A DNA stretch of 64,000 nucleotides from contig CACPOX010000001.1 in assembly GCA_902635665.1 (NCBI GenBank), positions 82,118 through 146,117 on the forward strand. The letters run 5' to 3'. Positions within the stretch are counted from its first letter, which is position 1; each line of letters starts with the position of its first letter. The notes under the pieces were generated by a model, which searched no databases, was not told the origin of the DNA, and saw only the letters and a list, made by a program, of their open reading frames with translations. This document shows, one piece after another, positions 1 to 18,535 of the stretch. A program made the translations under genes and the position numbers. Source of the stretch: an uncultured Pelagibacteraceae bacterium. Lineage in GTDB: Bacteria; Pseudomonadota; Alphaproteobacteria; Pelagibacterales; Pelagibacteraceae.

Positions 1-1564
1 TGTCCCACCAAGGACTTAAAGCTATAAATAATGTTAAACCACAAACAATTAAAGCTGAACGAATTCCACCAATTAAATATCCTGCTCCTACGACTAAAAC
101 TATAGTAGCTATAGCAGGCATTCTTAAATACAAAGCTCTCATAGGCTGAAGGACATCTTGAATTAACCATGTATTAAATGCTTTTATATAAACAAAAAAA
201 GTATCAAATATCCAATCAACTCCTCTATTCCAAAAATCGGCTGTTGAAATACCCTTATTATGTGGAACCTCAAATAAATAATTATGAGTTCCTTTAAATA
301 AATAAGTTCCTATATATGCAAGTACAATACCAATAATTACTGTTCCAACAAAAAATAAAATATTTTTATTTCTTTGTATAAACGTTAGATTACCAAAATA
401 ATCCTCTTGTTTATTGGCCCAAGCCAATGACATTTTATCTAAAAGTATTGCAATTAAACTGATACACAATCCAGCTTCTAAGGCCAAACCTATATCAAGT
501 CTATTTAATGCTAAAAGTAAATTATATCCTAAACCTTTTGCAGCTATAAAAGCTGAAATAACCGCCATAGAAAAACAAACCATTATAACTTGGTTTACAC
601 CAATCAAAATATCTCTTCTAGCTGTTGGAATTAAGACTTTGAACATTAGTTGCCAATTATTACATCCACTCATTTTTCCTGCTTCTATAACCTCTGGAGG
701 AACTGCTCTTAAACCTAATATGGTTAATAATATCATTGGTGGAATTGCAACTACCATCGTTATGATAACTGCAGCGTGATCTCCAACTCCAAACAAAACC
801 ATAGCAGGAACTAAAACTGCATATTGTGGCATAGTTTGCATAACTAAAAGAATTGGATACAATGCTTTCTCAACACGTTTATTTCTAAATGCTGCAATCC
901 CTAAACCTAAACCAAACATAAATGATAAAGGTGCAGCAACTAATATAAAAGAAAGAGTCTGCATTGATGGCTTCCATTGACCAAATATAGAAATATAAAC
1001 CATCGTTAAACCTGCAAATAAAGCAAGACCTCTTCCACTTAAATGATAGCTGAGCAATACTGCTCCTGCAGTAACTATTGTCCAAGGTAAACCAGGCAAT
1101 TCTGCCCAAGGATTATCGCTAATCCAATCCCAACCTGTAAATGTAACTATTGTATTTATGCCTCCGATTAAAATTTCTCTTATCAATTCAATCAAAAACG
1201 TCATAAAAAACGTTAGTTTTCTACTTACTTCTAATAATAAAGGCCGAGTTTTAAACTCTTGAGTATCTTCATTCCAAAATTCCAATGGCATCCACTCATT
1301 CATTAAAAAAAATAATGAATCATTTATCCAAATAGGTAACCATCCTAACAAAGGAGGTAACCTCCAAAAAACATCAAAAGCGTAATATCTTACTTCTTTA
1401 CCAAGAAAAACATACGTACTTTGATTTGGATCCCTAACAAATTCTGCCTGACCTCTTATAAATTTATAAGTTTCTGGAACATCAATTGCAAAACATAAAG
1501 CAAAAAAAGTAATTAACAAGAATAGCCATTGAAATAATTTTGGATATTTTTTTAAAATTTCCAT
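1..1564 (-). CDS. opuAB: Betaine/proline ABC transporter permease, double-length, C-terminus beyond window
   Basis: Inner-membrane permease of a ProU/OpuA-type importer, absent from the ORF track because it runs off the left edge. I translated it from ATG 1562-1564 (MEILKKYPKLFQWLF...); it stays open to base 1. It has a hydrophobic N-terminus, a periplasmic-looking segment, then a ProW-type membrane domain with the coupling-loop stretch ending IPPMILLTILGLRAVPPEVIEAG. After about residue 385 a new hydrophobic region begins, so this looks like the fused two-domain permease form rather than a single ProW. The start lies 3 bases after the ATPase stop, so the two are co-transcribed. Function by family; substrate range (glycine betaine, TMAO, DMSP, proline) is inferred. 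Confidence 0.88.
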   Translation of the reverse strand, partial: MEILKKYPKLFQWLFLLITFFALCFAIDVPETYKFIRGQAEFVRDPNQSTYVFLGKEVRYYAFDVFWRLPPLLGWLPIWINDSLFFLMNEWMPLEFWNEDTQEFKTRPLLLEVSRKLTFFMTFLIELIREILIGGINTIVTFTGWDWISDNPWAELPGLPWTIVTAGAVLLSYHLSGRGLALFAGLTMVYISIFGQWKPSMQTLSFILVAAPLSFMFGLGLGIAAFRNKRVEKALYPILLVMQTMPQYAVLVPAMVLFGVGDHAAVIITMVVAIPPMILLTILGLRAVPPEVIEAGKMSGCNNWQLMFKVLIPTARRDILIGVNQVIMVCFSMAVISAFIAAKGLGYNLLLALNRLDIGLALEAGLCISLIAILLDKMSLAWANKQEDYFGNLTFIQRNKNILFFVGTVIIGIVLAYIGTYLFKGTHNYLFEVPHNKGISTADFWNRGVDWIFDTFFVYIKAFNTWLIQDVLQPMRALYLRMPAIATIVLVVGAGYLIGGIRSALIVCGLTLFIALSPWWD

Positions 1565-1567
1565 AAT

Positions 1568-2596
1568 TTAATCTCCGTTTCTTCTTCCTCCAAAAACTGT
1601 ATTAATTATTTTTGAAGGATTTATTGAGCCAATTAAATTATTTTTATCATCAATAACACCAACTGTTTTTTCCTGAGTAAGAATTTTTTCAGCAACATTT
1701 TCAATCACCTCATCTTTTAAAACCTTTAAATCACCAATGCCATCTGTGGATTTATCCATAACATCTTCTATTAATAAAACTTTTTCTCTTGGCACTTCCT
1801 CAGTAAATTTTCTTACATATTCTGTTGCTGGATTTAAAACAATCTTAGCGGGAGTATCTAATTGTTCGATTAAACCATCTTTCATAATTGCAATACGATC
1901 AGCAAGTTTTAAAGCTTCATCAAAATCATGGGTTATAAACATAATTGTTTTTTTTAATTGCTCTTGAAGTCTTAAAAATTCATCTTGCATTTCTTTTCTA
2001 ATCAAAGGATCTAATGCTGAAAATGGCTCATCTAAAAACCATATATCAGGCTCAACAGCAAGAGATCTCGCTATACCAACCCTTTGTTGCTGTCCTCCAG
2101 ATAGTTCTCTTGGGAAATAATTTTCTCTTCCATCAAGACCAACTAACTTAACCATTTCCATTGCTTTATTAATAGTGTCTTCAGTTTTAATACCTTTAAT
2201 TTGGAGTGGGAAAGCAATATTTTCAACTACAGTTTTGTGTGGTAGTAATGCAAAACTCTGAAAAACCATCCCCATTTTATTTCTTCTAAGATTAATAAGT
2301 TCTTTATTGTTTAATTTTAATAAATCCTGACCTTCAATAAAAATTTTTCCACCTGTTGCCTCTGTTAATCTGGAAATGCATCTTAGCAACGTTGACTTGC
2401 CTGACCCCGATAAACCCATCACAACTAACATTTCCCCTTTTGCAACTTCAAAAGAAGCATTATTCACTCCAACTATACATCCATTTTCTTGAAAAGTTTT
2501 TGCGTCCACATTACCATTTGCTTCTTGAAGCATTTTTTTGGCATTTTCTCCAAAAATTTTATAAACGGACTCACATTTTATTACTGCATCAGACAT
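1568..2596 (-). CDS. opuAA: Betaine/proline ABC transporter ATP-binding protein
   Basis: Cytoplasmic ATPase that energises betaine import. Visible motifs are Walker A GLSGSGKST, Q-loop MVFQSFALLPHKTV, signature LSGGQQQRVG, Walker B IWFLDEP and switch histidine in FITHDFDEA. Like ProV/OpuAA it has an N-terminal extension (YKIFGENAKKML) before the nucleotide-binding fold and a CBS-like C-terminal tail (TVGVIDDKNNLIGSINPSK), a region that senses ionic state in some homologues. At 342 residues it is of usual length for the short form. It precedes the permease by 3 bases. A paralogue of the same type lies at 56374-57399. Confidence 0.93.
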   Translation of the reverse strand: MSDAVIKCESVYKIFGENAKKMLQEANGNVDAKTFQENGCIVGVNNASFEVAKGEMLVVMGLSGSGKSTLLRCISRLTEATGGKIFIEGQDLLKLNNKELINLRRNKMGMVFQSFALLPHKTVVENIAFPLQIKGIKTEDTINKAMEMVKLVGLDGRENYFPRELSGGQQQRVGIARSLAVEPDIWFLDEPFSALDPLIRKEMQDEFLRLQEQLKKTIMFITHDFDEALKLADRIAIMKDGLIEQLDTPAKIVLNPATEYVRKFTEEVPREKVLLIEDVMDKSTDGIGDLKVLKDEVIENVAEKILTQEKTVGVIDDKNNLIGSINPSKIINTVFGGRRNGD

Positions 2597-2661: not shown

Positions 2662-3213
2662 TTAAAAATTTTTTATGAAATAAACACGAGTATCAATTCC
2701 AGTACTTAAAAAACTTAACGCCTCACCGCTAACACTTATGCTTTCGTCAACTCCTACATTATTTCCACTAACTGTAAAACCTGCAAAACACTTGCCTTTT
2801 TCCTTGTCCCATTCAACAAAAGTATCATCAATTTTATTGCCATTGATAGTATAAATTTCATGAGCTCTGTGATTTAAAAAATTTGCTCCCATTATCGCAC
2901 GTTGTGGAATAAGTTTTGTAGCATTGCATACTTGCTCATAAACATCATCTGTTAATCTGTGATGATCAGTTCCATCAAAAGTTACCAATATCCCAGATGG
3001 AAGTTTTGATATTAATTCACTAAGTTTCTTTTCTTTTGCAATTCTTTCTTCTTCCAATTTCATTCTTTTTACTAAATCATCTCCCTCTCCAAATATAATA
3101 TTTAAGACACTAAAAGATAAAATTACAATTATTATTATAGAAACTAACCCTAGTAACTGTCGTATAGGCTCTGGTAATTCTTTTATTTTATTTAAATAAT
3201 TTTCCTTTAACAT
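2662..3213 (-). CDS. Hypothetical protein with one membrane anchor
   Basis: Family not recognised. The ORF track begins at 3240, but an internal ATG at 3211-3213 overlaps the stop of the upstream MORN gene as TAATG, a normal coupling arrangement in this genome, so I prefer MLKENYLNK as the start (183 residues). There is one hydrophobic helix near residues 20-41 (LLGLVSIIIIVILSFSVLNIIF), then a charged helix (KRMKLEEERIAKEKKL) and a likely periplasmic domain with two cysteines. Coupling to the MORN protein suggests a shared envelope role. Its position between opuAC and opuAA may be incidental. Confidence 0.7.
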   Translation of the reverse strand: MLKENYLNKIKELPEPIRQLLGLVSIIIIVILSFSVLNIIFGEGDDLVKRMKLEEERIAKEKKLSELISKLPSGILVTFDGTDHHRLTDDVYEQVCNATKLIPQRAIMGANFLNHRAHEIYTINGNKIDDTFVEWDKEKGKCFAGFTVSGNNVGVDESISVSGEALSFLSTGIDTRVYFIKNF

Positions 3214-3590
3214 TATTCTTGAAGCTTTCCGTTTTTCCAAATTCCTGATTTTTGTTTTCCATCTGCCCAGGTAAAAGTTCCTTCACCATTCATAAAACCA
3301 TTTGCCCACTCTCCTTCATAAGTAGAGCCATCTGGAAATGTTAATGTTCCGATTCCGTTCCAGACACTATTTTTAAATTCTCCTTTATAAATATAACCAT
3401 TTGGCCATGTTTCAATTCCTTGACCATTTTTTTTTGTACCAACCCATTCACCCTCATATGTAGTTTTATCTGTATAAATCCATTTGCCATAACCGTTTTC
3501 ACAATTACCCTCTTTACATCCTGTGCTTCTTGCAAAAACTGATGAGCTAAAAAGAAAACTCAAAAGAAAGATAAGAAAAAATTTTTTCAT
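3213..3590 (-). CDS. Exported MORN-repeat protein
   Basis: A 125-residue protein with a cleavable-looking signal peptide (MKKFFLIFLLSFLFSSSVFA) followed by four MORN-type repeats of the pattern YEGEW..G..NGQG or YKGEFKNSVWNGIGTL. MORN repeats are short beta-hairpin modules found in many bacterial envelope proteins; the ligand is unknown. Two cysteines early in the mature protein (GCKEGNCENGYG) could form a disulfide. The 3' end overlaps the next gene. Transcription from opuAC would have to pass the strong terminator upstream, so this gene may start a separate unit with the downstream ATPase and permease. Confidence 0.8.
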   Translation of the reverse strand: MKKFFLIFLLSFLFSSSVFARSTGCKEGNCENGYGKWIYTDKTTYEGEWVGTKKNGQGIETWPNGYIYKGEFKNSVWNGIGTLTFPDGSTYEGEWANGFMNGEGTFTWADGKQKSGIWKNGKLQE

Positions 3591-3670: not shown

Positions 3671-4618
3671 TTATTTAGTAAAAGCTTTCCAAGTTGACTC
3701 ATTGTCAGCTAACCATTTTTTAGCTGCGTCTTGGTGAGTCATGCCATCAACATCAACCAAAGCTGCCATAGCTCCAATTTGACTTGTTGAAAATGACATT
3801 TTTTTGAAAGCTGCCGCTGCATCAGGATGAGTTTTTGGGAAATCCTCATGAACTGCTTTTTTCAAGTATCCATCAGGAGAACCACATTTACCATCTCCAC
3901 CATCAGCTGGTCTACAACCTGCTGTATATGGAGGGAAGTCAATAAATGTAAAACCAGCACCATCTGTAAAGTTTGGAGTCCAGTTGAATATAATTGTTCC
4001 TCTTCCTTCTTTTTCAGCTGCTTTTAACTCTGCCCAAAGTGCATCTGCACCTCCAGCAAACTTAACCCACCAAAGATCACCTAAACCAAGTGCATCAATT
4101 CTCTGTGGTATCAAGTCACCATGCCAAGTTTGTGGACCTTCTAACATTCTTCCTTTTCCATCTGGTGAATCAGGCGTTGTGAAGTTCTTAGCACAGTCTG
4201 GATTTTTTAAAGCTGTCCAGTCAGGTAGACCTGGGCATAAACCTTTTTCAACAACCCAGTTTGGATATCCCATATCCTCTAGTGTTCTTGCTTCATGATC
4301 TCCCCAGTCAAGTAATCCACCTTTATCTCTCGCTGTATCAAAAGATTTACCAAATGCAGACTCCCATACTTCATGAGATATGGTTACATCACCAATTCTA
4401 ATTGATTCATAAACTGCTTGTGAGTCAACACCTTCAGCGTACGTAACATTGTTACCCATACTTTCGAAAATCCCACCAATAACGTAAGCCATTACAATTT
4501 GACTTGACCAGTTATGAGTTGGGATAACGATAGGCTTCTTGCTATCAGCGTTAGAAATTCCTGCAAAACTTACAACAGAAATAACTAGAGCAGATAGTAA
4601 TGATATTATTTTTTTCAT
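3671..4618 (-). CDS. opuAC: Betaine-type ABC transporter substrate-binding protein
   Basis: Periplasmic binding protein of the OpuAC/ProX family, 315 residues. The signal peptide is MKKIISLLSALVISVVSFAGISNA. The mature protein begins with the family's typical KPIVIPTHNWSSQIVMAYVIGGIFESMG, and many tryptophans (HNWSS, HEVWESAFG, DLWWVKFAG) could build the aromatic cage that holds trimethylammonium groups. The SD-like AGAGGGG lies just before ATG. Its neighbours are the methylamine cassette on the divergent side and opuAA/opuAB downstream. SAR11 transporters of this type bind glycine betaine and related compounds broadly; the exact substrate here is inferred. Confidence 0.9.
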   Translation of the reverse strand: MKKIISLLSALVISVVSFAGISNADSKKPIVIPTHNWSSQIVMAYVIGGIFESMGNNVTYAEGVDSQAVYESIRIGDVTISHEVWESAFGKSFDTARDKGGLLDWGDHEARTLEDMGYPNWVVEKGLCPGLPDWTALKNPDCAKNFTTPDSPDGKGRMLEGPQTWHGDLIPQRIDALGLGDLWWVKFAGGADALWAELKAAEKEGRGTIIFNWTPNFTDGAGFTFIDFPPYTAGCRPADGGDGKCGSPDGYLKKAVHEDFPKTHPDAAAAFKKMSFSTSQIGAMAALVDVDGMTHQDAAKKWLADNESTWKAFTK

Positions 4619-4760: not shown

Positions 4761-7100
4761 ATGTTAGGAACAAGTATTGAAATAAAATATCCAGGTTTAA
4801 ATGTTTTGCCACCTGGGGTTGAAAGACACATTGTCAATGGTGGAGGCCTAACCGGTTTTCAAATTTTTCCTGATGATGAGATAGAAATAATCAATAATGA
4901 GGGAAATCAAACATGTGAAATTATTTGTTTTGATAAAGATGGAAACTCAGATGCTGGAATATTAAATCTTAAATCAAACAACGAAAAAAACTTCATAAAA
5001 AATATTCTTAGTGGCAATGATGAAACAATTTTAGCTACCAACTATCAATTAAAAAAAAGAAATTTAAAAATTTCTAATTCAAAATCTTCAATTATATTTG
5101 ATTTAGACACAGAGCCTGGTGAAAAAATTAAATTAAAATCAAAAGATAAATGTTACACGATATTTGCAGCTCCTGGCAAAGATATGGATGTTACAAAACA
5201 AAATCCACCAACTGATTTAACCATATTCGTTAAAAGAGCTAAAATTGTAAATGATAAAGAATTAAATGTAATTCCTGATCCTGTTTTTGAACCTGTTTAC
5301 GAAGAAAATATAAATAAAGAAAGTTGTATATCTTATGAGGTTAAGGAAGGGGATTATATACAAGTGATAAGTCCAACTGGCAGACAATGTTCTGACTTTG
5401 TAGCGTTCGATACAAGAAAATTAGAAAAAGGAATTGAAAAAGGATTGGACTGGCAAACCACAAGAACATTCATGGGTAATACTTTCCCGGGACCAGGTTT
5501 GTTCTCTAAATTTTATGACACAGATCATGAGCCACTTGTTGAGGTAATAAGAGATACTGTTGGAAAACATGATACTTTTAATCTTGCATGCACTTCAAAA
5601 TATTATGAAGACTCAGGGTATTTTGGTCATCCAAATTGTTCAGATAATTTAACTGAAAGTATGTCGAAATACGGTGTTAAGAAACAAAAAGGTTGGCATG
5701 CAATTAATTTGTTTTTTAACACCTCTGCTGGAGGATTAAATTCTGTTATTTCTGATGAATCTTATTCAAGACCTGGTGATTATGTAATGTTTAAGGCTTT
5801 AAAAGATTTAACAATAGGAACAACTGCATGTCCAAGTGATATAGATCCGTGTAATTCATGGAATCCTACTAATATATTTGTTAGAACTTACGACAAAAAT
5901 AAAGAATTTAGAAAGTCATTTGGTTTTAGAATGAAAACAGACTCTGAAAATAAACTTACTAGAAATTCTGGCTTTTATGAAAGAACTTCAAAATTAACTA
6001 GAAACTTTGTTGATGCTAGAGGCTTTTGGCTTCCAAACGATTACACCAAACATGGTTTGGTTAATGAGTACAATGCTTGTAGAAATGATGCTGTATTAAT
6101 TGATCTATCATCGCTAAGAAAATTTGAAATAATTGGTCCCGATGCTGAGGAGTTAATGAACTACACTCTCACAAGAAATATAAAAAAACTTTCTGTTGGA
6201 CAGGTTGTTTATTCTGCAATGTGTTACGAAAATGGAATGATGTTCGATGATGGAACTCTTTTAAGATTAAGCGAAACAGGTTTTAGATGGATATGTGGAG
6301 ATGAATATGGTGGAGAATGGCTTAAAGAAATTGCAAAAAAAAAGAATTTTAATGCTATTGTTAAAAACTCTACTGACCAAATTAGTAATGTATCTTTGCA
6401 AGGTCCTAAAAGTAGAGAAATTTTAAAAAAAATTATCTTTACACCGCCAACACAGCCTTCGATAGATGAGTTGGGCTGGTTCAGATTTACAATTTGTAGA
6501 ATAGAGGAACTTCAAGGTATACCATTAATTGTTTCAAGAACAGGTTATACTGGTGAGTTAGGTTATGAGATTTGGTGTCATCCAAAACATGCTCCGGAAG
6601 TTTGGGATAAATTAATGGAAGCGGGAAAAAATGACGGGCTTATTCCAGCTGGGTTTGCCGCTCTAGATAAACTTAGAATTGAGGCGGGTTTAATTTTATT
6701 TGGTGCTGAGTTTGACGGTGAACAAGATCCCTTTGAAGCTGGCATAGGTTTTGCTGTTCCATTGAAAACAAAAGAGGAAGATTTCATTGGTAAAGAGGAA
6801 TTGGTTAAAAGAAAGTCAAACCCTCAAAAGAAATTAGTAGGATTAGAACTTGCTGGTAAAGAAATAGCTGGTCATGGAGACTGTGTTCATATTGGAAGAT
6901 CTCAAGTTGGTACAGTTACGAGTGGATGCTTGTCCTCTACTTTAAATAAAAATATTGCACTTTGTAGAATAGACATTCAGTACTCTGAGATTGGTACTGA
7001 TGTAGAGATTGGTAAAATTGATGGTCATCAAAAAAGAATTGGTGCAAAAGTAGTTGGTTTTCCTTTTTATGATCCAACTAAATCGAGAGTCAAAGCTTAA
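4761..7100 (+). CDS. DUF1989 (two copies)-GcvT fusion, putative folate-dependent demethylase
   Basis: A 779-residue multidomain protein. Residues about 5-165 look like a divergent DUF1989/urea-carboxylase-associated domain. Residues about 175-385 are a clear DUF1989 domain (GKHDTFNLACTSKYYE, HPNCSDNL, INLFFNTSAGG, ACPSDIDPCN). Residues about 425-775 are a GcvT-type aminomethyltransferase (NGMMFDDGTLLR with the folate-site Asp, SLQGPKSREIL, GYTGELGYEIW). GcvT relatives move methyl or aminomethyl groups to tetrahydrofolate. DUF1989 domains occur in carboxyguanidine deiminase and other urea or guanidine-linked proteins. Divergent from opuAC and 5 bases ahead of a winged-helix protein. The substrate is unknown; a methylated nitrogen compound is a reasonable inference. 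No SD is evident. Confidence 0.8.
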   Translation: MLGTSIEIKYPGLNVLPPGVERHIVNGGGLTGFQIFPDDEIEIINNEGNQTCEIICFDKDGNSDAGILNLKSNNEKNFIKNILSGNDETILATNYQLKKRNLKISNSKSSIIFDLDTEPGEKIKLKSKDKCYTIFAAPGKDMDVTKQNPPTDLTIFVKRAKIVNDKELNVIPDPVFEPVYEENINKESCISYEVKEGDYIQVISPTGRQCSDFVAFDTRKLEKGIEKGLDWQTTRTFMGNTFPGPGLFSKFYDTDHEPLVEVIRDTVGKHDTFNLACTSKYYEDSGYFGHPNCSDNLTESMSKYGVKKQKGWHAINLFFNTSAGGLNSVISDESYSRPGDYVMFKALKDLTIGTTACPSDIDPCNSWNPTNIFVRTYDKNKEFRKSFGFRMKTDSENKLTRNSGFYERTSKLTRNFVDARGFWLPNDYTKHGLVNEYNACRNDAVLIDLSSLRKFEIIGPDAEELMNYTLTRNIKKLSVGQVVYSAMCYENGMMFDDGTLLRLSETGFRWICGDEYGGEWLKEIAKKKNFNAIVKNSTDQISNVSLQGPKSREILKKIIFTPPTQPSIDELGWFRFTICRIEELQGIPLIVSRTGYTGELGYEIWCHPKHAPEVWDKLMEAGKNDGLIPAGFAALDKLRIEAGLILFGAEFDGEQDPFEAGIGFAVPLKTKEEDFIGKEELVKRKSNPQKKLVGLELAGKEIAGHGDCVHIGRSQVGTVTSGCLSSTLNKNIALCRIDIQYSEIGTDVEIGKIDGHQKRIGAKVVGFPFYDPTKSRVKA

Positions 7101-7105
7101 GAGCT

Positions 7106-7456
7106 ATGCCAAAAGAAAAGAAAACGCTCTTAGATTTTTGGGAAGATCAAATGAGGCAATCTCATACATCTAGTAATTATTTTTTTAGAAAATCACCTTC
7201 CCATTATCATATGATGTTGCTAGTAATGTCAGCATATAAAGAAGATAAAAAATTATCAGTAGAAGAATTAAAAACAAAACTATTTAAGACTTCTCGACCT
7301 AAATCAGCTTTGATAATCACCGAGGCTTGTGAAAAAGGATTCTTTAGACTTGAAAAAACTTCAACAGACCAGCGAATAAAAAATATAATACCAAGTGAAT
7401 CATTTATAAATGAGTTTAATGATTATTTAATCACTTTAAAAAACATAAGTTATTAG
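7106..7456 (+). CDS. Small winged-helix (MarR-like) putative regulator
   Basis: A 116-residue protein that reads like a single MarR-type winged helix. It has an N-terminal helix (LLDFWEDQMRQSH), a likely helix-turn-helix (LSVEELKTKLFKTSRPKSALIITEACEKGFF) and a wing (RLEKTSTDQRIKNIIPSESF, close to the D-x-R wing of MarR proteins). It follows the DUF1989-GcvT gene by 5 bases, so it probably belongs to that operon and may control it or the adjacent transporter and amine genes. Transcription factors are few in SAR11, which makes its placement informative. The assignment rests on pattern only. Confidence 0.6.
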   Translation: MPKEKKTLLDFWEDQMRQSHTSSNYFFRKSPSHYHMMLLVMSAYKEDKKLSVEELKTKLFKTSRPKSALIITEACEKGFFRLEKTSTDQRIKNIIPSESFINEFNDYLITLKNISY

Positions 7457-7556: not shown

Positions 7557-8885
7557 ATGACGACATTACCTTCAAAAGCTAAAGTAGTTATAATCGGTGG
7601 TGGAATACATGGGCTAAGTACTGCTTGGAAGCTTTCTGAAACTTACAAAAATCCTGGTGACATAATTGTATTAGAAAAAAAAGATACTGCTGCTGGTGCA
7701 AGTGGAATTGCATGTGGTGTCGTAAGAAATAATTATTTTCAACCCGCAATGAGAGAATTGATGGCTCACTCAGTTTCTGTTTGGGAGAGTGATCCTAAAG
7801 CATTTAAATACAATCCAGTTGGTTATTTACAAATATCACCTGAGGTAATGCATGAAGATGTTGCAACTATTTACCAACAACAAAAGGCTATTGGATACGA
7901 GTCCGTATTCATAGAAGGTGAAAAAGATTGTTCAAGTTATATGAAGGGTATTTTTGACGATTGGCAAGCACAGGGTATTACTTCTGTGCTTCATGAAAAA
8001 AAAGGTGGATACGCATTTAACAAAGATTCGATTAAAGCACTAGAGAGTAAATCTACATCTAATGGTGTGCAAGTGATGAAAGGTGTAAAAGTAACAGGAT
8101 TTAAAAAAGGGAGTAACAGTCAAGCTGTTACTGGAGTAGAAACAGATAAAGGTTTAATCGAATGTGAACAAGTTGTAATTGGGGCAGGTCCTTGGGCAAG
8201 AGATTTTTGGAACATGTTAGAACTACCTAAGACAGCAAATATCAAAGGTAAAGATGGTAAAATGCATGAAACTGATATGTGGACATACTGGATGTTACAA
8301 GAAGGTGTTATTGGTGTTGAACCAGATTTTTTGAAAACAAATGATGGAAAACAACCACCTGTAGTTCATGTAGACTCGACTGCTCCGTTATATTCAGACA
8401 AAACTAAAAAATTATTAACAGATAAAATTTGGGGAATTTATTATAAACCTGATATCGAAGGATTAGGTGTTCAAGGTGGCACTTCACCTTACATAGTCAA
8501 AAAACATTTTGATCAAGTTAATGTTGATCCTTATGGAATTGAATCTCCTGAGTATCAAACAACTGATGCATTTAGTGAAATGTGGTGTTCAGCTTTAGCA
8601 CATTGTCAAAAAAGATTTGAAGGCAAATCTGATTTATATAGAAAAGGACCTTCGGGTGGTCTTGGATGCATGACGCCAGACTCTTTTCCAATCTTTGATA
8701 GGTTTTTTGAAAACGTTTACATGATTGCAGATGCAAACCATGGATACAAAATGATTGGTGTTGGTGAACTTGTTGCAAAAGAAATTCTTGGTACTGAAAG
8801 TGATTTATTAAAACCATTTAGATTCAACCGTTACGAGAAGGGAGAACTTCACCCTACTTCGAACAGTCCGTTTCCTTGGAGCTAG
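7557..8885 (+). CDS. FAD-dependent amine oxidoreductase, sarcosine oxidase/SoxB-like
   Basis: A DAO-superfamily flavoprotein of 442 residues. The dinucleotide-binding motif is VVIIGGGIHGLSTAWKL, followed by IIVLEKKDTAAGASGIACGVVRNNY (the flavin-attachment region of this family), EQVVIGAGPWARDFW and a C-terminal MIADANHGYKMIGVGELVAKEI. Relatives oxidise secondary or tertiary amines such as sarcosine, dimethylglycine or N-methylglutamate. It precedes the GS-like gene and mgsABC, so oxidation of N-methylglutamate or another N-methyl amino acid is plausible. No SoxA, SoxD or SoxG-like partners are present. The ATG has little SD and follows a 100-bp AT-rich gap. Confidence 0.82.
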   Translation: MTTLPSKAKVVIIGGGIHGLSTAWKLSETYKNPGDIIVLEKKDTAAGASGIACGVVRNNYFQPAMRELMAHSVSVWESDPKAFKYNPVGYLQISPEVMHEDVATIYQQQKAIGYESVFIEGEKDCSSYMKGIFDDWQAQGITSVLHEKKGGYAFNKDSIKALESKSTSNGVQVMKGVKVTGFKKGSNSQAVTGVETDKGLIECEQVVIGAGPWARDFWNMLELPKTANIKGKDGKMHETDMWTYWMLQEGVIGVEPDFLKTNDGKQPPVVHVDSTAPLYSDKTKKLLTDKIWGIYYKPDIEGLGVQGGTSPYIVKKHFDQVNVDPYGIESPEYQTTDAFSEMWCSALAHCQKRFEGKSDLYRKGPSGGLGCMTPDSFPIFDRFFENVYMIADANHGYKMIGVGELVAKEILGTESDLLKPFRFNRYEKGELHPTSNSPFPWS

Positions 8886-8954
8886 ACTCTAAGCCTAGAC
8901 ACAAATAAATTTTTCAGCTACGTTTGAATAAATTAAATTCATTGAGGGGTGAAA

Positions 8955-10424
8955 ATGACAGATCTAGAAAAACACGTTAACCAACCGGGGCGTGCAAAAT
9001 TAGTAAAAGACGTAAGAGCAAAAATTAAAGAATTAGGAATAACTTATATTTATTTTCAATTCATTTCAGTCACTGGAAGAGTTGTTGGAAAAGGTATCCC
9101 TGCTGACCATTGGGAAAGAACTGCAGAAAAAGGTTTTCAATTAGTTTATGGTTCTACTGCAAATTTATTCTTAGATCGTCATAATAATTACATCGGTTAC
9201 GGACCAGAGGCTATGGAACTTGTGGGAATTCCTGATCCAGAAACTTTCGTTCAATTACCTTGGGATAAAAGAGTTGCAAGAGTATTTTGTACTTGTTTTA
9301 GAAATAGAGAAGAAAGAGAAAATCCAGGCGGTCATTTAACTTCAGACTGTAGAGGAAATTTAAGAATTTTCATGGATGAATTTAAAAAGAAACATGGATT
9401 AGAATTAAGAGTGGGTACAGAGCCTGAAATGATGTGGTTAACTAAAAACGAAGATGGAACACCGTCAGGTAAAGGTTTTTCAAAACCTTTTTGTTACCAC
9501 ATTGATCAATTTGAGTCATTAAGACCAGTATTTATGCAAGTAATAGAATATGCAAATGCTATGGGTCTTGATATGATTCAAGGAGACCATGAGGATGCGC
9601 CAGGTCAATTAGAATTAAACTGGACTTACGATAACGTTTTAAGAAATGCAGATAGATTATCTACTTACAGACAAATTTGCGCTCAAGTTGCAAGAGAACA
9701 TAATTTAATTGCTTGCTTTATGACAAAACCTTTTATGGGTGTTTCTGCAAGTGGTTGCCATACAAACATGTCTTTATGGAAAGGTGGAAAGGTTAAAGTA
9801 AATAAACTTGGCCATAAATCTTTACCAGGTGTTGATGGAGTGTTTAGTTATGTTGAAGGTGGAACAAACACTTTCATGCCTGATACAAAAGATATGCAAA
9901 TGCCAGGTAAAATTGGTTTGCAATCAATTGCAGGTATCATGAAGCACTTGCCAGCATTAACAGCCCTTGGATCTTCAACTGTAAATTCTTACAGAAGATT
10001 ATGGGATCAGGGATTTTGGGCTCCTGTTTACGCTGATTGGGGTTATCAAAATAGAACTTGTGGTTTAAGAGTTTCTGCACCAGGAAGATTTGAATATAGA
10101 TCGGTTGACTCTATGCATAATCCTTATCTATTGGGTGCTGCTTTATTAAAAGCTTGCGATGAAGGTATAACCAAGAAAATGAAACCAGCTGCTCCAGAAT
10201 CTAGAAATATTTACGAAGCTCAAAAAGCTGGTAAAGACGTTAAAAAACTTCCATTAAGTTTAGGTGAAGCTTTGGATAGACTGGCAGAGGATGAAGTAAT
10301 CAAATCTGCAATGCCAGATGAAATGTATAAAGTTTTCCATTGGTACAAAAACGATGAGTGGGAAAGATTTCTTGGTGCAACAACACAATGGGATCTGGAT
10401 ACTTATCTTGATTGTCTACCGTAG
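8955..10424 (+). CDS. Divergent glutamine-synthetase homologue (gamma-glutamyl ligase), substrate uncertain
   Basis: A GS-fold ATP-dependent ligase. The ORF track starts at GTG 8949, but that overlaps the SD GAGGGG (8944-8949), so ATG 8955 is better (489 residues). Catalytic motifs are present: GTEPEMMW, DHEDAPGQLELNW, GCHTNMSLW, NSYRRLWD, and GRFEYRSVDSMHNPYL. In the N-terminal latch region it reads FISVTGRVVGKGIPA, where ordinary GS has the ammonium-binding Asp (FTDTKG...) and GmaS at 16076 has FVDLFG. Ser therefore replaces that Asp, suggesting an acceptor other than ammonium. It lies immediately upstream of mgsABC and is probably co-transcribed with it. It is not the same family as GmaS downstream. 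Confidence 0.8.
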   Translation: MTDLEKHVNQPGRAKLVKDVRAKIKELGITYIYFQFISVTGRVVGKGIPADHWERTAEKGFQLVYGSTANLFLDRHNNYIGYGPEAMELVGIPDPETFVQLPWDKRVARVFCTCFRNREERENPGGHLTSDCRGNLRIFMDEFKKKHGLELRVGTEPEMMWLTKNEDGTPSGKGFSKPFCYHIDQFESLRPVFMQVIEYANAMGLDMIQGDHEDAPGQLELNWTYDNVLRNADRLSTYRQICAQVAREHNLIACFMTKPFMGVSASGCHTNMSLWKGGKVKVNKLGHKSLPGVDGVFSYVEGGTNTFMPDTKDMQMPGKIGLQSIAGIMKHLPALTALGSSTVNSYRRLWDQGFWAPVYADWGYQNRTCGLRVSAPGRFEYRSVDSMHNPYLLGAALLKACDEGITKKMKPAAPESRNIYEAQKAGKDVKKLPLSLGEALDRLAEDEVIKSAMPDEMYKVFHWYKNDEWERFLGATTQWDLDTYLDCLP

Positions 10425-10456: not shown

Positions 10457-11401
10457 ATGTGTGGTATAGCAGGTTTAATTCATAGAGGAAAATCTTCAAA
10501 TGTTGGAAGTGAGTTGCAAGGTATGCTCCAAGCATTAAAACATAGAGGGGAAGACTCAACAGGTTACGCTTTATATGGAGACACAGATGGTAAAAATTTC
10601 ATTATGCGTTTTAAAGTTGGGGAAAACGTAGGTGAAGGAAGTTCGTCAGTTATGGAAGATGTTTCTGTTTACGATGAAAGAAAAAAAATTGTAGACGAAA
10701 CTTTAGCCGAGATGGGAGCTAAAGTGGTTAAAGAAGAAAGAACTCTTCCCTACTCTTTAAGATATGAAATTGACTACAACGTTAAAGACCTTTTAGAATT
10801 TTCGCAACGTATAGAAAGTATCCCTGGTGTAGAAATTCTTTCTATGGGTAAATCTTTAGAAGTGATTAAAGATCTTGGAAACGCTAAAATGGTTTGTGAT
10901 AGATATAACTTAGATAAAGTTGTTGGAACACATGCTATTGGTCATGCTAGAATGGCTACAGAGTCTGGTGTAGATATCAAATCTGCCCACCCTTTCTGGG
11001 GATATCCGTTTAGTGATGTATCTGTTGTTCACAACGGGCAATTAACAAACTACTGGAACAATAGAAGAGTTTTAGAAAATAAAGGTATGAGATTTATGTC
11101 TGAATGTGACTCGGAATTAATCGCAGTTTACATTGCAGAAAAAATGAGGGACGGAGCAACTTTAGAGGAAGGAATGAAAGCATCATTAACAGGTTTAGAT
11201 GGTGTATTTACTTATTTTGTTGCAACTAAAGATTCATTAGGAATGGCAAAAGATACAATGGCTGCAAAACCATTGGTATTATATGAGTCTGATGATTTGG
11301 TTGCTATGGGATCTGAAGAAATTGCAATTAGATCTGTATTACCACAAGAAATTGATACATATGATCCATTTGATGGGGAGGTGAAAGTATGGCAAATTTA
11401 A
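10457..11401 (+). CDS. mgsA: N-methylglutamate synthase subunit A, class II glutamine amidotransferase
   Basis: Starts MCGIAGLIHRG, so after Met removal Cys is the N-terminal nucleophile of a class II amidotransferase. Further family marks are HRGEDSTGYA, GHARMATES, VVHNGQLTNYW and ECDSELIAVYIAE. At 314 residues it matches the amidotransferase-like subunit of N-methylglutamate synthase (also called GlxB). In the pathway, gamma-glutamylmethylamide or methylamine plus glutamate gives N-methylglutamate. The SD AAAGGG is well placed. The gene overlaps mgsB by 13 bases, indicating coupled translation and a stoichiometric complex. Confidence 0.88.
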   Translation: MCGIAGLIHRGKSSNVGSELQGMLQALKHRGEDSTGYALYGDTDGKNFIMRFKVGENVGEGSSSVMEDVSVYDERKKIVDETLAEMGAKVVKEERTLPYSLRYEIDYNVKDLLEFSQRIESIPGVEILSMGKSLEVIKDLGNAKMVCDRYNLDKVVGTHAIGHARMATESGVDIKSAHPFWGYPFSDVSVVHNGQLTNYWNNRRVLENKGMRFMSECDSELIAVYIAEKMRDGATLEEGMKASLTGLDGVFTYFVATKDSLGMAKDTMAAKPLVLYESDDLVAMGSEEIAIRSVLPQEIDTYDPFDGEVKVWQI

Positions 11402-12243
11402 AAACAGTATCGAAAAAATCTAAAGCCCAATCAATGGGTATGCACACTGAGGTATTAACAGGAAGAACTCAACAAAAATTCTTTAATCCTGATGAAGCAG
11501 AAAACTTTTACTACTTTGGTACATACGATGTAGATTTTAATAAAAGAACTGATCTTGATGTTAAAGACATGACAGCACCTGAGGCTAATAAAGAGATCGA
11601 TAACTTAATGAGCCAAGGATATGGAACAATAGTAATAAAAAACCCGCAAGGTAAACACAGTCTTGGAGTTGGTATTTTAAATAAACTGAATTTAATTTTT
11701 GAAGGAAGTTTAGGATACTTTGGAATGGGTTCTTGTGATGGTCCAATAGTTAGAATTAATGGAAGAGTTGGATGGTCATGTGCAGAAAATTTAATGGCTG
11801 GTAAAGTAGTGATCGAAAAGAATGCTGGATCTTGTTTTGGTGCGGCAATTAGAGGTGGAGATTTAATTTGCAAAGGTAGTGTTGGTGCTAGAACTGGTAT
11901 TGATATGAAAGGTGGAACCATAATAATTGGTGGTGACGCTGGTGCCTTTACTGGTTTTATGATGCAAAGAGGAAGAATAATTATTCTTGGAGATGTTGGA
12001 ATTAACCTAGGCGACTCTATGTACGATGGGACAATTTTCGTAGGTGGAGAAATTGGTTCTTATGGTAGTGATGCAGTAGATGCAGAGTTAACATCAAGTG
12101 ATCAAGATTGGCTAAAAAGAAAATTGAAGGTTGCTGAAATTGGTGAAAATTTCGATGTAAGTAAAATGAAAAAAATTGTAGCAGGTAAAAAACTTTGGAA
12201 TTATGACAATTTGGAACCTACAGAGAAGAAGGGAGCAATATAA
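11389..12243 (+). CDS. mgsB: N-methylglutamate synthase subunit B, GXGXG domain
   Basis: A 284-residue protein built of the glutamate-synthase alpha-subunit C-terminal beta-helix. It carries repeated GG/GG turns: NGRVGWSCAENLMAGKVVIEKNAGSCFGAAIRGGDLICKGSVGARTG, then MKGGTIIIGGDAGAFTGFMMQRGRIIILGDVG. In glutamate synthase this domain is structural and helps form the ammonia tunnel; here it is a separate subunit, as in MgsB/GlxC. The start overlaps mgsA by 13 bases and the stop forms TAATG with mgsC. The antisense 136-residue ORF inside it is a shadow. Confidence 0.88.
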   Translation: MANLKTVSKKSKAQSMGMHTEVLTGRTQQKFFNPDEAENFYYFGTYDVDFNKRTDLDVKDMTAPEANKEIDNLMSQGYGTIVIKNPQGKHSLGVGILNKLNLIFEGSLGYFGMGSCDGPIVRINGRVGWSCAENLMAGKVVIEKNAGSCFGAAIRGGDLICKGSVGARTGIDMKGGTIIIGGDAGAFTGFMMQRGRIIILGDVGINLGDSMYDGTIFVGGEIGSYGSDAVDAELTSSDQDWLKRKLKVAEIGENFDVSKMKKIVAGKKLWNYDNLEPTEKKGAI

Positions 12244-13655
12244 TGGCTAAGAAAAAATCTAAAAAAGTTAAAAAAAATGGAAAAGGTGTTGGTGGAAAAG
12301 CGGATGTCCATGCACATGAAGAAGGTAAAAGAAATAAAAGTTTATTAGGTCATAACGCTATCTTCACACCTGAAGTAATAGACGACATTCATATTAAGTC
12401 TCAATTAGGAAGATACAGAATGCGAGGAATGGCATTGATGAAAAAAATTCCTACTTTTGATGATTTAGTTTTCTTACCTGGAACACTAACTAGATTTGTA
12501 ATCGAAGGTTACAGAGAAAAATGTGAAACAAAAACTGTTATTGGACCAAGATGTGAAAATCCAATTGAGTTAGATATTCCAGTTTATATTACAGGAATGA
12601 GTTTCGGTGCGCTTTCTTATGAAGCAAAAACTGCTTTGGCAAGAGGAGCAACTATGGCTGGTAGTGCTACTTGTTCAGGTGAAGGTGGAATGATACCTGA
12701 TGAGAGAAGATATTCAGAAAAATGGTATTACCAATGTATTCAATCAAGATACGGATTTAATCCTCATCATGCACAATTAGCAGATGGTATTGAAGTATTT
12801 ATAGGACAAGGCCAAAAAGTTGGAATGGGTGGACACCTAATGGGTCAGAAGGTTACTGACCAAGTTGCTGAGATGAGATCATTGCCATCTGGAATTGATC
12901 AAAGATCTCCAGCGAGACACCCTGACTGGCTAGGACCAGATGATTTAGCTCTTAAAGTAGAAGAACTAAGACAGTTAACAAAAAATAAAGTACCAATTCA
13001 ATTAAAGTTAGGTGCATCCAAAGTTTATGATGATGTGCGTATGGCTGCAAAATGTGATCCTGACTCTATTTATTTAGATGGTATGGAAGGTTCTACAGGA
13101 GCTGGCCCACATATCGCTGCTGCAAACACTGGTATTCCAGGTATTGCTGCAATTCGAGAAGCTAGAAGAGCAATCGACGATGTTGGTAAAACTGGAAAAG
13201 TAACATTAATTTATGCTGGTGGAGTCAGAGACGGTGCTGACATGGCTAAAGCTTTAGCTCTTGGAGCTGATGCGATAGCTATTGGTACAGGATCTATGAT
13301 TGCATTAAACTGCAACAAAGATATCCCTGAAGCAAACTTTGAAAAAGAAATGGGAGTAAAAGCAGGTGAATGTTATCACTGCCATACTGGACGTTGCCCA
13401 GTTGGTGTTGCAACTCAAGATCCTAAATTAAGAGCAAGACTAAATCCTGATGATGCAGCGCTAAGAGTTTATAATTATCTTCACTCAATGACTTTAGAGG
13501 CTCAGCTTTTAGCAAGAGCTTGTGGTAAAACAAATATACACTCTCTAGAGCCAGAAGATTTAGCTGCTTTAACATCAGAGGCATCAGCTTTAGCAAAAGT
13601 TCCATTAGCTGGAACTAACTACACGGTTGGTGTTGACAACTACCATAAAATATAG
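12243..13655 (+). CDS. mgsC: N-methylglutamate synthase subunit C, FMN/Fe-S glutamate synthase-like
   Basis: The FMN-binding synthase subunit (470 residues), equivalent to GlxD. It has a Lys-rich N-terminal tail (MAKKKSKKVKKNGKGVGGKADVHAH), then the TIM-barrel glutamate-synthase domain: PVYITGMSFGALSYEAKTALARGA, SGEGGMIPDERR, QLKLGASKVYDDVRMAAKCDPDSIYLDGMEGSTGAGP, and LALGADAIAIGTGSM. The Fe-S cluster motif CYHCHTGRCPVGVATQDP lies near residues 376-393. It catalyses the reductive transfer step yielding N-methylglutamate. It is coupled to mgsB and 8 bases ahead of the next gene. Confidence 0.9.
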   Translation: MAKKKSKKVKKNGKGVGGKADVHAHEEGKRNKSLLGHNAIFTPEVIDDIHIKSQLGRYRMRGMALMKKIPTFDDLVFLPGTLTRFVIEGYREKCETKTVIGPRCENPIELDIPVYITGMSFGALSYEAKTALARGATMAGSATCSGEGGMIPDERRYSEKWYYQCIQSRYGFNPHHAQLADGIEVFIGQGQKVGMGGHLMGQKVTDQVAEMRSLPSGIDQRSPARHPDWLGPDDLALKVEELRQLTKNKVPIQLKLGASKVYDDVRMAAKCDPDSIYLDGMEGSTGAGPHIAAANTGIPGIAAIREARRAIDDVGKTGKVTLIYAGGVRDGADMAKALALGADAIAIGTGSMIALNCNKDIPEANFEKEMGVKAGECYHCHTGRCPVGVATQDPKLRARLNPDDAALRVYNYLHSMTLEAQLLARACGKTNIHSLEPEDLAALTSEASALAKVPLAGTNYTVGVDNYHKI

Positions 13656-16075: not shown

Positions 16076-17401
16076 GTGTCTAAAAATTTATTTCAAATTG
16101 CGAAGCAAAAAAAAATTAAATATTTTTTAATCAGTTTTGTAGATTTATTTGGTGTATTAAGATCAAAATTAGTCCCTGCTCACGCTATAAAAGAAATGCA
16201 AAATGCAGGAGCTGGTTTTGCTGGTTTTGCTGCTTGGCTAGATATGACACCTGCTGATTCTGATATGTTTGGAATTCCTGATCCAGATAGCTTAATTCAG
16301 CTTCCTTGGAACAAAGAGGTAGGATGGTTAGCATCTGATCTATGGATGAATGGTAAACCAGTAGATGCATCACCCAGAGTGATGTTAAAAAATCAGATAA
16401 AAAAACTTAAAAAACAAAATTTAACAATGAAATCAGGTGTTGAATGTGAATATTTTTTGATTTCACCTGATGGCAACTCAATTGCGGATCCAAGAGATAC
16501 TCAGTCTAAACCTTGTTATGATCAATCTGCATTAATGAGAAGGTATGATTTAATCAAGGAAATTTGTGATTGTATGATTGAAATGGGATGGGGCCCGTAT
16601 CAAAACGATCATGAAGATGCTAACGGACAATTTGAAATGAATTGGGATTATTCAGATTGCCTAAAAACAGCAGACAGACACACTTTTTTTAAATTTATGG
16701 TAAAAACAATCGCTGAAAAGCATGGATTAAGAGCAACATTTATGCCTAAACCATTTGGAAATTTAACCGGCAATGGTTGTCATGCTCACGTATCAGTTTG
16801 GCAAGGTAGTAAAAATAAATTCTTAGATAATAAAGATAAACTTGGTTTAAGTAAAATGGCCTATAATTTTTTAGGTGGGGTGATTAAAAATGCATCATCT
16901 TTATCTGCATTTTTTAATCCAACGATCAATAGTTACAGAAGAATAAATGCACCACCTACAAAATCTGGAGCATCATGGTCACCAAGTAGTATTTCTTATA
17001 CAGGTAATAATCGAACACACATGATTAGAATTCCTGATCCAGGAAGATTTGAATTAAGATTAATGGACGGTTCTGCTAATCCTTATTTATTACAAGCAAG
17101 TGTTTTAGCAGCTGGTCTATATGGTTTAAAAAACAAAGTTGATCCAGGCAAACCATTGGATTGTAACATGTATGAAGATTTTGCAAAATATCCAGACTTA
17201 CCTAAGCTACCTGATGAACTTGAACAATCCTTAAATTTATTAAAAAATAATAAAGATATGAATGATGCTTTTGGCAAAGATGTTATTGAAAGTTATATAA
17301 AGTTAAGAAGTTCAGAAATGAATGAATTCAAATCAAAAGATAGTTTTGATAAAACAAAAGATGTTACAAAGTGGGAAAAAGATAATACTTTAGATTGTTA
17401 G
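16076..17401 (+). CDS. gmaS: Gamma-glutamylmethylamide synthetase
   Basis: A GS-superfamily ligase joining methylamine to glutamate with ATP to give gamma-glutamylmethylamide, the first step of the indirect methylamine pathway. It is 441 residues with a GTG start. The GmaS-like signature is YFLISFVDLFGVLRSKLVPA, GAGFAGFAAWLDMTPADSDMFGIPDP, GVECEYFL, YQNDHEDANGQFEMNWDYSDCLKTADRHTFFKFM, GNGCHAHVSVW and GRFELRLMDGSANPYL. The latch Asp (FVDLFG) is retained, unlike the paralogue at 8955. The neighbouring mgsABC supplies the next enzyme. The diaminopropionate lyase-like gene follows 3 bases later. Confidence 0.9.
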   Translation: MSKNLFQIAKQKKIKYFLISFVDLFGVLRSKLVPAHAIKEMQNAGAGFAGFAAWLDMTPADSDMFGIPDPDSLIQLPWNKEVGWLASDLWMNGKPVDASPRVMLKNQIKKLKKQNLTMKSGVECEYFLISPDGNSIADPRDTQSKPCYDQSALMRRYDLIKEICDCMIEMGWGPYQNDHEDANGQFEMNWDYSDCLKTADRHTFFKFMVKTIAEKHGLRATFMPKPFGNLTGNGCHAHVSVWQGSKNKFLDNKDKLGLSKMAYNFLGGVIKNASSLSAFFNPTINSYRRINAPPTKSGASWSPSSISYTGNNRTHMIRIPDPGRFELRLMDGSANPYLLQASVLAAGLYGLKNKVDPGKPLDCNMYEDFAKYPDLPKLPDELEQSLNLLKNNKDMNDAFGKDVIESYIKLRSSEMNEFKSKDSFDKTKDVTKWEKDNTLDC

Positions 17402-17404
17402 TAC

Positions 17405-18535
17405 ATGACTATATTATCTAACGGTCATCAATGGAAATACACAGAATTTACAGACAATAAAAATTACTCTTTTAACAAAAAAGAAATTCTAAGTTCTCTA
17501 ACTTCAGAAGAAATTAATGATGCTTATAAGAGTATTTCTAAGTGGAAAGGTTATTCTCCTACTCCCCTGCATTCTTTAAATAAACTTTCAAAAGAATTAA
17601 ATTTAAACAAAATTTTTTATAAAGATGAAAATAAAAGATTTGATTTAAAATCTTTTAAAGCTTTAGGTGGAGCTTATGCGGTAGAAAAAATAACCAAAGG
17701 AAATAAAGATATAGTAGTAGCAACAGCTACCGCAGGTAATCATGGAAGATCTGTTGCCTGGGGGGCTAAAAGATTAGGTCTAAGCTGTAAAATATTTATT
17801 AGTGAATTTGTAAGTAATGCAAGAGGCAAAGCTATGGCCGCACTTGGAGCTGAGGTAGTAAAAGTAAAAGGTAATTATGAAAAATCATTGATGGAATGCA
17901 TAAAGCAGTCTACTGAAAATAATTGGCAAATAGTTCAGGATGTTGCTTGGAAAGATTATATGATTGTACCCAAGTATACGATGGCAGGTTATACAGTCAT
18001 GATGAAAGAAATAGCTGATCAAATCCAAGAGGAGAAAATAACTCACATCATTTTACAGGCAGGTGTTGGTGGCATGGCTGCTGCCATGGTTGCAGGTATT
18101 GCAAGATATTTAAATCATATTCCAGTGGTTATAGTTGTTGAACCTGATAGTGCAGCATGTGTTATGGAAAGCATTAAAACTGGAAAAATAGAAAAAATAG
18201 ATATTAAAAGAGAAAGCTTAATGGGTGGTATGTCTTGTGGTGAAGTATCATTAGTCCCATGGGAAATACTCAAAAATTCAGTTAAACATTGTATTAGTTT
18301 ACCAGATGATGATATTGCAAAAACTATGAAACTACTTGGAAATTCAAGCTTTAGTGATGAAAAAATAATTGCAGGAGAAAATTCAGCTCCTGGTGTAATC
18401 AGTTTGATAACAAGTTGTGAGGATCAAGCAATTAAAGAAAAATTAGATTTAAATAAAAAATCTAATATTTTAGTTTTTGGTTGTGAAGGAGATACTGACC
18501 AAGAAATGTATCAAAAGTTAATTAACCAAAATTAA
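17405..18535 (+). CDS. dpaL: Diaminopropionate ammonia-lyase-like PLP enzyme
   Basis: A fold type II PLP enzyme (376 residues). FYKDENKRFDLKSFKALGGAYAVEKI matches the diaminopropionate ammonia-lyase signature around the PLP lysine. TATAGNHGRSVAWGAKRLG and LQAGVGGMAAAMVAGIARY are cofactor-phosphate and Gly-rich segments. The usual reaction is 2,3-diaminopropionate to pyruvate and two ammonia. EutB of ectoine catabolism and threonine dehydratases are related alternatives. It sits 3 bases after gmaS, so it shares the nitrogen-scavenging operon, releasing ammonia from another substrate. Family assignment is firm, substrate less so. Confidence 0.78.
   Translation: MTILSNGHQWKYTEFTDNKNYSFNKKEILSSLTSEEINDAYKSISKWKGYSPTPLHSLNKLSKELNLNKIFYKDENKRFDLKSFKALGGAYAVEKITKGNKDIVVATATAGNHGRSVAWGAKRLGLSCKIFISEFVSNARGKAMAALGAEVVKVKGNYEKSLMECIKQSTENNWQIVQDVAWKDYMIVPKYTMAGYTVMMKEIADQIQEEKITHIILQAGVGGMAAAMVAGIARYLNHIPVVIVVEPDSAACVMESIKTGKIEKIDIKRESLMGGMSCGEVSLVPWEILKNSVKHCISLPDDDIAKTMKLLGNSSFSDEKIIAGENSAPGVISLITSCEDQAIKEKLDLNKKSNILVFGCEGDTDQEMYQKLINQN

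Follow-up and report, generated by a model that had tools for sequence, protein, structure and literature searches.

A three-domain DUF1989-GcvT protein of SAR11 assigned to the trimethylamine N-oxide demethylases

Introduction

What does a single protein do that carries two DUF1989-like units fused to a domain resembling the glycine cleavage T-protein (GcvT)? The question is raised by a gene in a SAR11 (Pelagibacterales) genome of about 1.1 Mb, whose nearest relatives are Pelagibacteraceae genomes with 90-98% protein identity. The window, i.e., the whole stretch of DNA analysed, spans 64,000 nucleotides of contig CACPOX010000001.1. Here, we describe the family, domain layout, metal-site residues and gene context of this protein, which is almost certainly the SAR11 trimethylamine N-oxide (TMAO) demethylase, Tdm, an already known enzyme. 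TMAO is a common marine osmolyte, and because SAR11 bacteria are extremely numerous in ocean surface waters, their breakdown of TMAO matters for marine carbon and nitrogen. The domain fusion of Tdm is instructive; it is not a new find, because the literature already covers the enzyme and its three-domain build, together with its presence in SAR11 and its induction by TMAO. What this locus adds is one more Tdm orthologue and two sequence details useful for mutagenesis, a serine at position 345 and a leucine/phenylalanine pair at the folate site.

Identity of the protein

The reading frame is unbroken, running from an ATG start to a single terminal stop and encoding 779 amino acids (Table 1). 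The protein aligned over its whole length with the solved TMAO demethylase structures 9q59, 9q5a and 9q5l, its best PDB matches (E 3e-238 for 9q59 over residues 17-777, and similar values for the other two). Identity to the 9q59 chain was 45% overall, ranging from 24% in the N-terminal domain to 44% in the DUF1989 domain and 54% in the GcvT part. The numbering of these structures agrees with that of the Tdm of Methylocella silvestris BL2 after a 22-residue offset. The NCBIfam equivalog model for TMAO demethylase, NF053776, matched residues 16-779 with 1085.6 bits (E 0), which is 1.3% short of the curated cutoff of 1100 bits, and also matched 30/30 members of a SAR11 alignment. Both GcvT models stayed under their cutoffs (TIGR00528, 231.4 of 235.85 bits; NF001567, 268.4 of 300 bits), and compared with the glycine cleavage T-protein the chain has an additional N-terminal half of 400 residues. 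Relatives in other genomes retain the three-part chain. Among studied strains, a close counterpart in the same clade occurs in Candidatus Pelagibacter ubique HTCC1062, whose tdm (PMC8918994) is probably SAR11_1303 of PMC3160333.

Table 1 Features of the tdm locus (positions in the window). Neighbour counts come from 80 SAR11 loci, with denominators that differ gene by gene.
Feature	Position	Strand	Evidence
tmoW, ABC transporter permease, extends past the window edge	2..1564	-	BPD_transp_1 E 4.6e-21; near tdm in 63/69 loci
tmoV, ABC transporter ATPase	1568..2596	-	TIGR01186 proV 339.5 bits, above cutoff; near tdm in 66/72 loci
tmoX, periplasmic TMAO-binding protein	3671..4618	-	Divergent from tdm, 142-bp gap; OpuAC Pfam; adjoins tdm in 71/77 loci
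tdm, trimethylamine N-oxide demethylase (assigned)	4761..7100	+	NF053776 and PDB 9q59 matches
Divergent DUF1989-like N-terminal domain, without metal ligands, residues 14-172	4800..5276	+	hhalign, model matches
Canonical DUF1989 domain, residues 183-350	5307..5810	+	Pfam PF09347 E 4.8e-40
Codon span of metal-site residues D212, C277, H290, C293, C357, D360	5394..5840	+	Alignment to 9q59, 82 SAR11 and 22 other rows
GcvT-like folate-binding domain and C-terminal barrel, residues 406-771	5976..7073	+	Pfam PF01571, PF08669
116-aa protein	7106..7456	+	5-bp gap 3' of tdm; kept in 77/77 loci
FAD-dependent oxidoreductase (DAO family)	7557..8885	+	DAO Pfam E 2.8e-32; 74/76 loci
gmaS-like glutamine synthetase III family, putative gamma-glutamylmethylamide synthetase	8949..10424	+	TIGR03105 300 bits, under the 469.6 cutoff; 69/71 loci
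mgsA, mgsB, mgsC, putative N-methylglutamate synthase subunits	10457..13655	+	Amidotransferase, FwdC/GltB-like and glutamate synthase-like matches; gene order conserved

Domain architecture

Within the chain, a Pfam DUF1989 domain is followed by GCV_T (residues 406-665, E 2.5e-66) and GCV_T_C (residues 690-771, E 7.3e-19). The initial annotation had described a DUF1989-like region, a canonical DUF1989 domain and a T-protein-like domain in one protein; given the intact 779-codon frame and the Pfam placement of the domains, that description is accurate, including its view of the C-terminal part as resembling a folate enzyme.

Since Pfam returned no match in residues 1-170, the first region was examined by profile-profile comparison. 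A profile of residues 14-172, built from diverse relatives, aligned nearly end to end with a second profile, made from the DUF1989 domain of the same protein (residues 174-395), with an hhalign probability of 94-96% and E values of 1.3e-7 to 2.2e-9. By comparison, the probability never exceeded 0.5% in 20 controls (19 with shuffled columns, one reversed), and it was 0.2% for a section of the GcvT domain. When residues 1-172 were modelled on their own with AlphaFold (pLDDT 71, pTM 0.72), the best Foldseek matches of the model included the DUF1989 structures 3oru, 3siy and 3di4 (probability 0.97, 0.97 and 0.77), with E values of 0.01-0.04 and modest TM-scores of 0.42-0.47. Because the controlled profile comparison and the structural matches agree, the term DUF1989-like is correct for this region, which by sequence profile and predicted fold is a divergent member of that group. 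The DUF1989 fold that had been proposed for the first 170 residues is thus borne out by the profile check.

The two DUF1989 units differ in their ligands. In the profile alignment, nothing in the first domain corresponds to the stretch of the second that bears the Cys/His ligands, and of the three cysteines in the N-terminal region, none is conserved outside SAR11. The Tdm of M. silvestris has its three domains in the identical order, and its N-terminal domain is likewise DUF1989-like, has none of the zinc cysteines and goes undetected by InterPro (PMC12560246). A role in folding and oligomer packing is most likely for this metal-free domain. The single-domain protein TM1040_0329 (3oru/3siy) has the DUF1989 domain in common with Tdm and lacks the GcvT half.

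Metal-site residues

In the canonical domain, D212, C277, H290, C293, C357 and D360 correspond to D198, C263, H276, C279, C343 and D346 in the Tdm of M. silvestris, where these residues have been shown or proposed to make up the Zn and Fe sites. All six are invariant across 82 SAR11 rows, and in 22 non-SAR11 rows the sole position to vary is D346 (Ala in two). The DUF1989 metal ligands, whose absence had been named as grounds for abandoning the initial annotation, are therefore present in the canonical domain and lacking in the first.

The position next to the last of these residues, Asp345 in M. silvestris, is Ser359 in 82/82 SAR11 rows (codon 5835-5837) and Cys in 4 of the 22 non-SAR11 rows. 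As judged from the alignment, the SAR11-wide serine is a small real difference from the M. silvestris enzyme. In the construct of structure 9q5a, Asp345 was changed to Ala together with D198, and D345 is not an established defining feature of Tdm.

Reaction and substrate

From the literature on orthologues, we infer the reaction, metals and oligomeric assembly expected for SAR11 Tdm. TMAO would be imported by TmoXWV or produced from trimethylamine by trimethylamine monooxygenase, and Tdm would cleave it to dimethylamine and formaldehyde, with O2 not needed. Cleavage would take place in the second, canonical DUF1989 domain, where three cysteines would hold Zn2+ and Fe2+ would lie close by. The GcvT-like domain may then hand formaldehyde to tetrahydrofolate (THF). 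In M. silvestris, Tdm splits TMAO at its Zn/Fe site into dimethylamine and formaldehyde in a 1:1 ratio, whether O2 is present or not, and each half of the protein is inactive by itself, the GcvT-like domain being required for activity (PMC12560246). The literature searched contained no report of activity from a purified SAR11 Tdm. Pelagibacter HTCC1062 grows with TMAO as sole nitrogen source, and TMAO induces its tdm, tmoX and gmaS (PMC8918994); the strain also oxidises TMAO methyl groups (PMC3160333).

The initial annotation was right to expect removal of a methyl group from a methylated nitrogen compound. Its particular candidates fare differently. An enzyme that demethylates or deiminates a methylated urea, guanidine or creatine and passes the C1 unit to folate is suggested by the DUF1989 domain that the protein has in common with urea-amidolyase-associated proteins (UAAP1 and UAAP2), but the respective models scored far under their cutoffs (TIGR03424, 72.5 of 284.7 bits; TIGR03425, 36.8 of 205.95 bits) against a whole-chain match to TMAO demethylase. 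Moreover, the neighbours examined comprise TMAO import and methylamine genes, with no urea or guanidine genes among them. We consider this reading virtually excluded, and methylguanidine, methylurea, creatine and betaines are unsupported as substrates. A glycine-betaine-linked aminomethyltransferase was postulated in 2011 for SAR11_1303 from its adjoining betaine-type (opuAC-type) transporter genes (PMC3160333), and the binding protein next to tdm here does contain an OpuAC domain. However, subsequent work on HTCC1062 demonstrated that this transporter takes up TMAO, the compound that induces tdm (PMC8918994), and the closest solved chain to the binding protein is 4xz6 (E 4.5e-79), its likeness to ProX being only weak. 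A link to betaine is thus very improbable, and TMAO demethylation is the preferred assignment.

Within that assignment, the role of the GcvT half can be read in more than one way. The initial annotation had proposed channelled C1 transfer to folate; in its TMAO form, the GcvT domain would capture formaldehyde from the DUF1989 half as 5,10-methylene-THF, making SAR11 Tdm a channelled bifunctional enzyme. The domain is intact, its DDG segment (D496, D497) is unchanged in every row, methyl-group oxidation in SAR11 is predicted to proceed by a THF route (PMC3160333), and with THF present M. silvestris Tdm releases slightly less formaldehyde (PMC12560246). Against this, the M. silvestris enzyme releases equimolar formaldehyde and turns over TMAO with no requirement for THF, the use of which was judged vestigial, and it has Phe and Leu in place of Y101 and R223, two residues that contact THF in E. 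coli GcvT (PMC12560246). Both positions differ here as well, being Leu501 and Phe632 in our alignment, i.e., Leu/Phe where M. silvestris has Phe/Leu. We regard such capture in SAR11 as possible, although somewhat doubtful. It is unlikely that Ser at the Asp345 position and the distinct folate-site pair make SAR11 Tdm mechanistically unlike the Methylocella enzyme, for instance through other metal coordination or true formaldehyde transfer to THF.

Gene neighbourhood

The neighbour set of tdm (Table 1) is kept in most of the 80 SAR11 loci, and likewise in the locus L141 of a congeneric genome. An ammonium transporter gene lies downstream of mgsABC. A flavin monooxygenase gene (G000:C1:77744-78892, contig coordinates), about 8 kb upstream of tdm (start 86878), is a candidate trimethylamine monooxygenase, with matches to the trimethylamine monooxygenase 6kbw (E 4.4e-172) and the FMO 7d4k (E 3e-302). 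Together, the monooxygenase, tmoXWV, tdm, gmaS and mgsABC form the published SAR11 route for trimethylamine, TMAO and methylamine (PMC8918994, PMC5520151, PMC3160333).

The neighbours of tdm in HTCC1062 are the same as here, namely opuAC/tmoXWV, a monomeric sarcosine oxidase-like gene, gmaS and mgsABC; by gene numbers, extra genes lie between the oxidoreductase and mgs/gmaS in that strain, whereas they are contiguous here. In Ruegeria pomeroyi DSS-3, Tdm (Spo1562) likewise belongs to a route for TMAO that includes tmoXWV, gmaS and mgs. That species additionally carries dmmDABC for handling dimethylamine, genes that are reportedly missing from every SAR11 genome examined (PMC5520151).

The FAD-dependent oxidoreductase is probably the counterpart of SAR11_1304. 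The HTCC1062 gene is named monomeric sarcosine oxidase, and the protein here scored 73.6 of 529 bits, far under the cutoff of the soxB model. It is kept beside gmaS/mgsABC in SAR11, and in a distant alphaproteobacterium a protein of 64% identity is encoded near gmaS. The oxidoreductase was considered for the missing dimethylamine-to-methylamine step, against which speaks its occurrence near gmaS/mgs in the distant genome and in class members without a tdm match. Against a role as the MgdA subunit speaks a complete soxBDAG-like operon elsewhere in its own genome. No match to it was found in the plasmid records scanned.

Pfam and NCBIfam searches returned no match for the 116-aa protein encoded directly 3' of tdm. 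It might be a regulator of the cluster, and a winged-helix fold is only a guess; if a regulator, it would be of another kind than TmaR, because that Roseobacter master regulator is of the AraC type (PMC13390433).

Two further features of the window were observed. Between tmoX and tmoV, two mutually overlapping reading frames (2662-3590, minus strand), one of them with MORN repeats, split the transporter genes. Downstream of the ammonium transporter, at 16076-18535, a second glutamine synthetase III (620 bits, above cutoff) lies beside a diaminopropionate ammonia-lyase-like gene.
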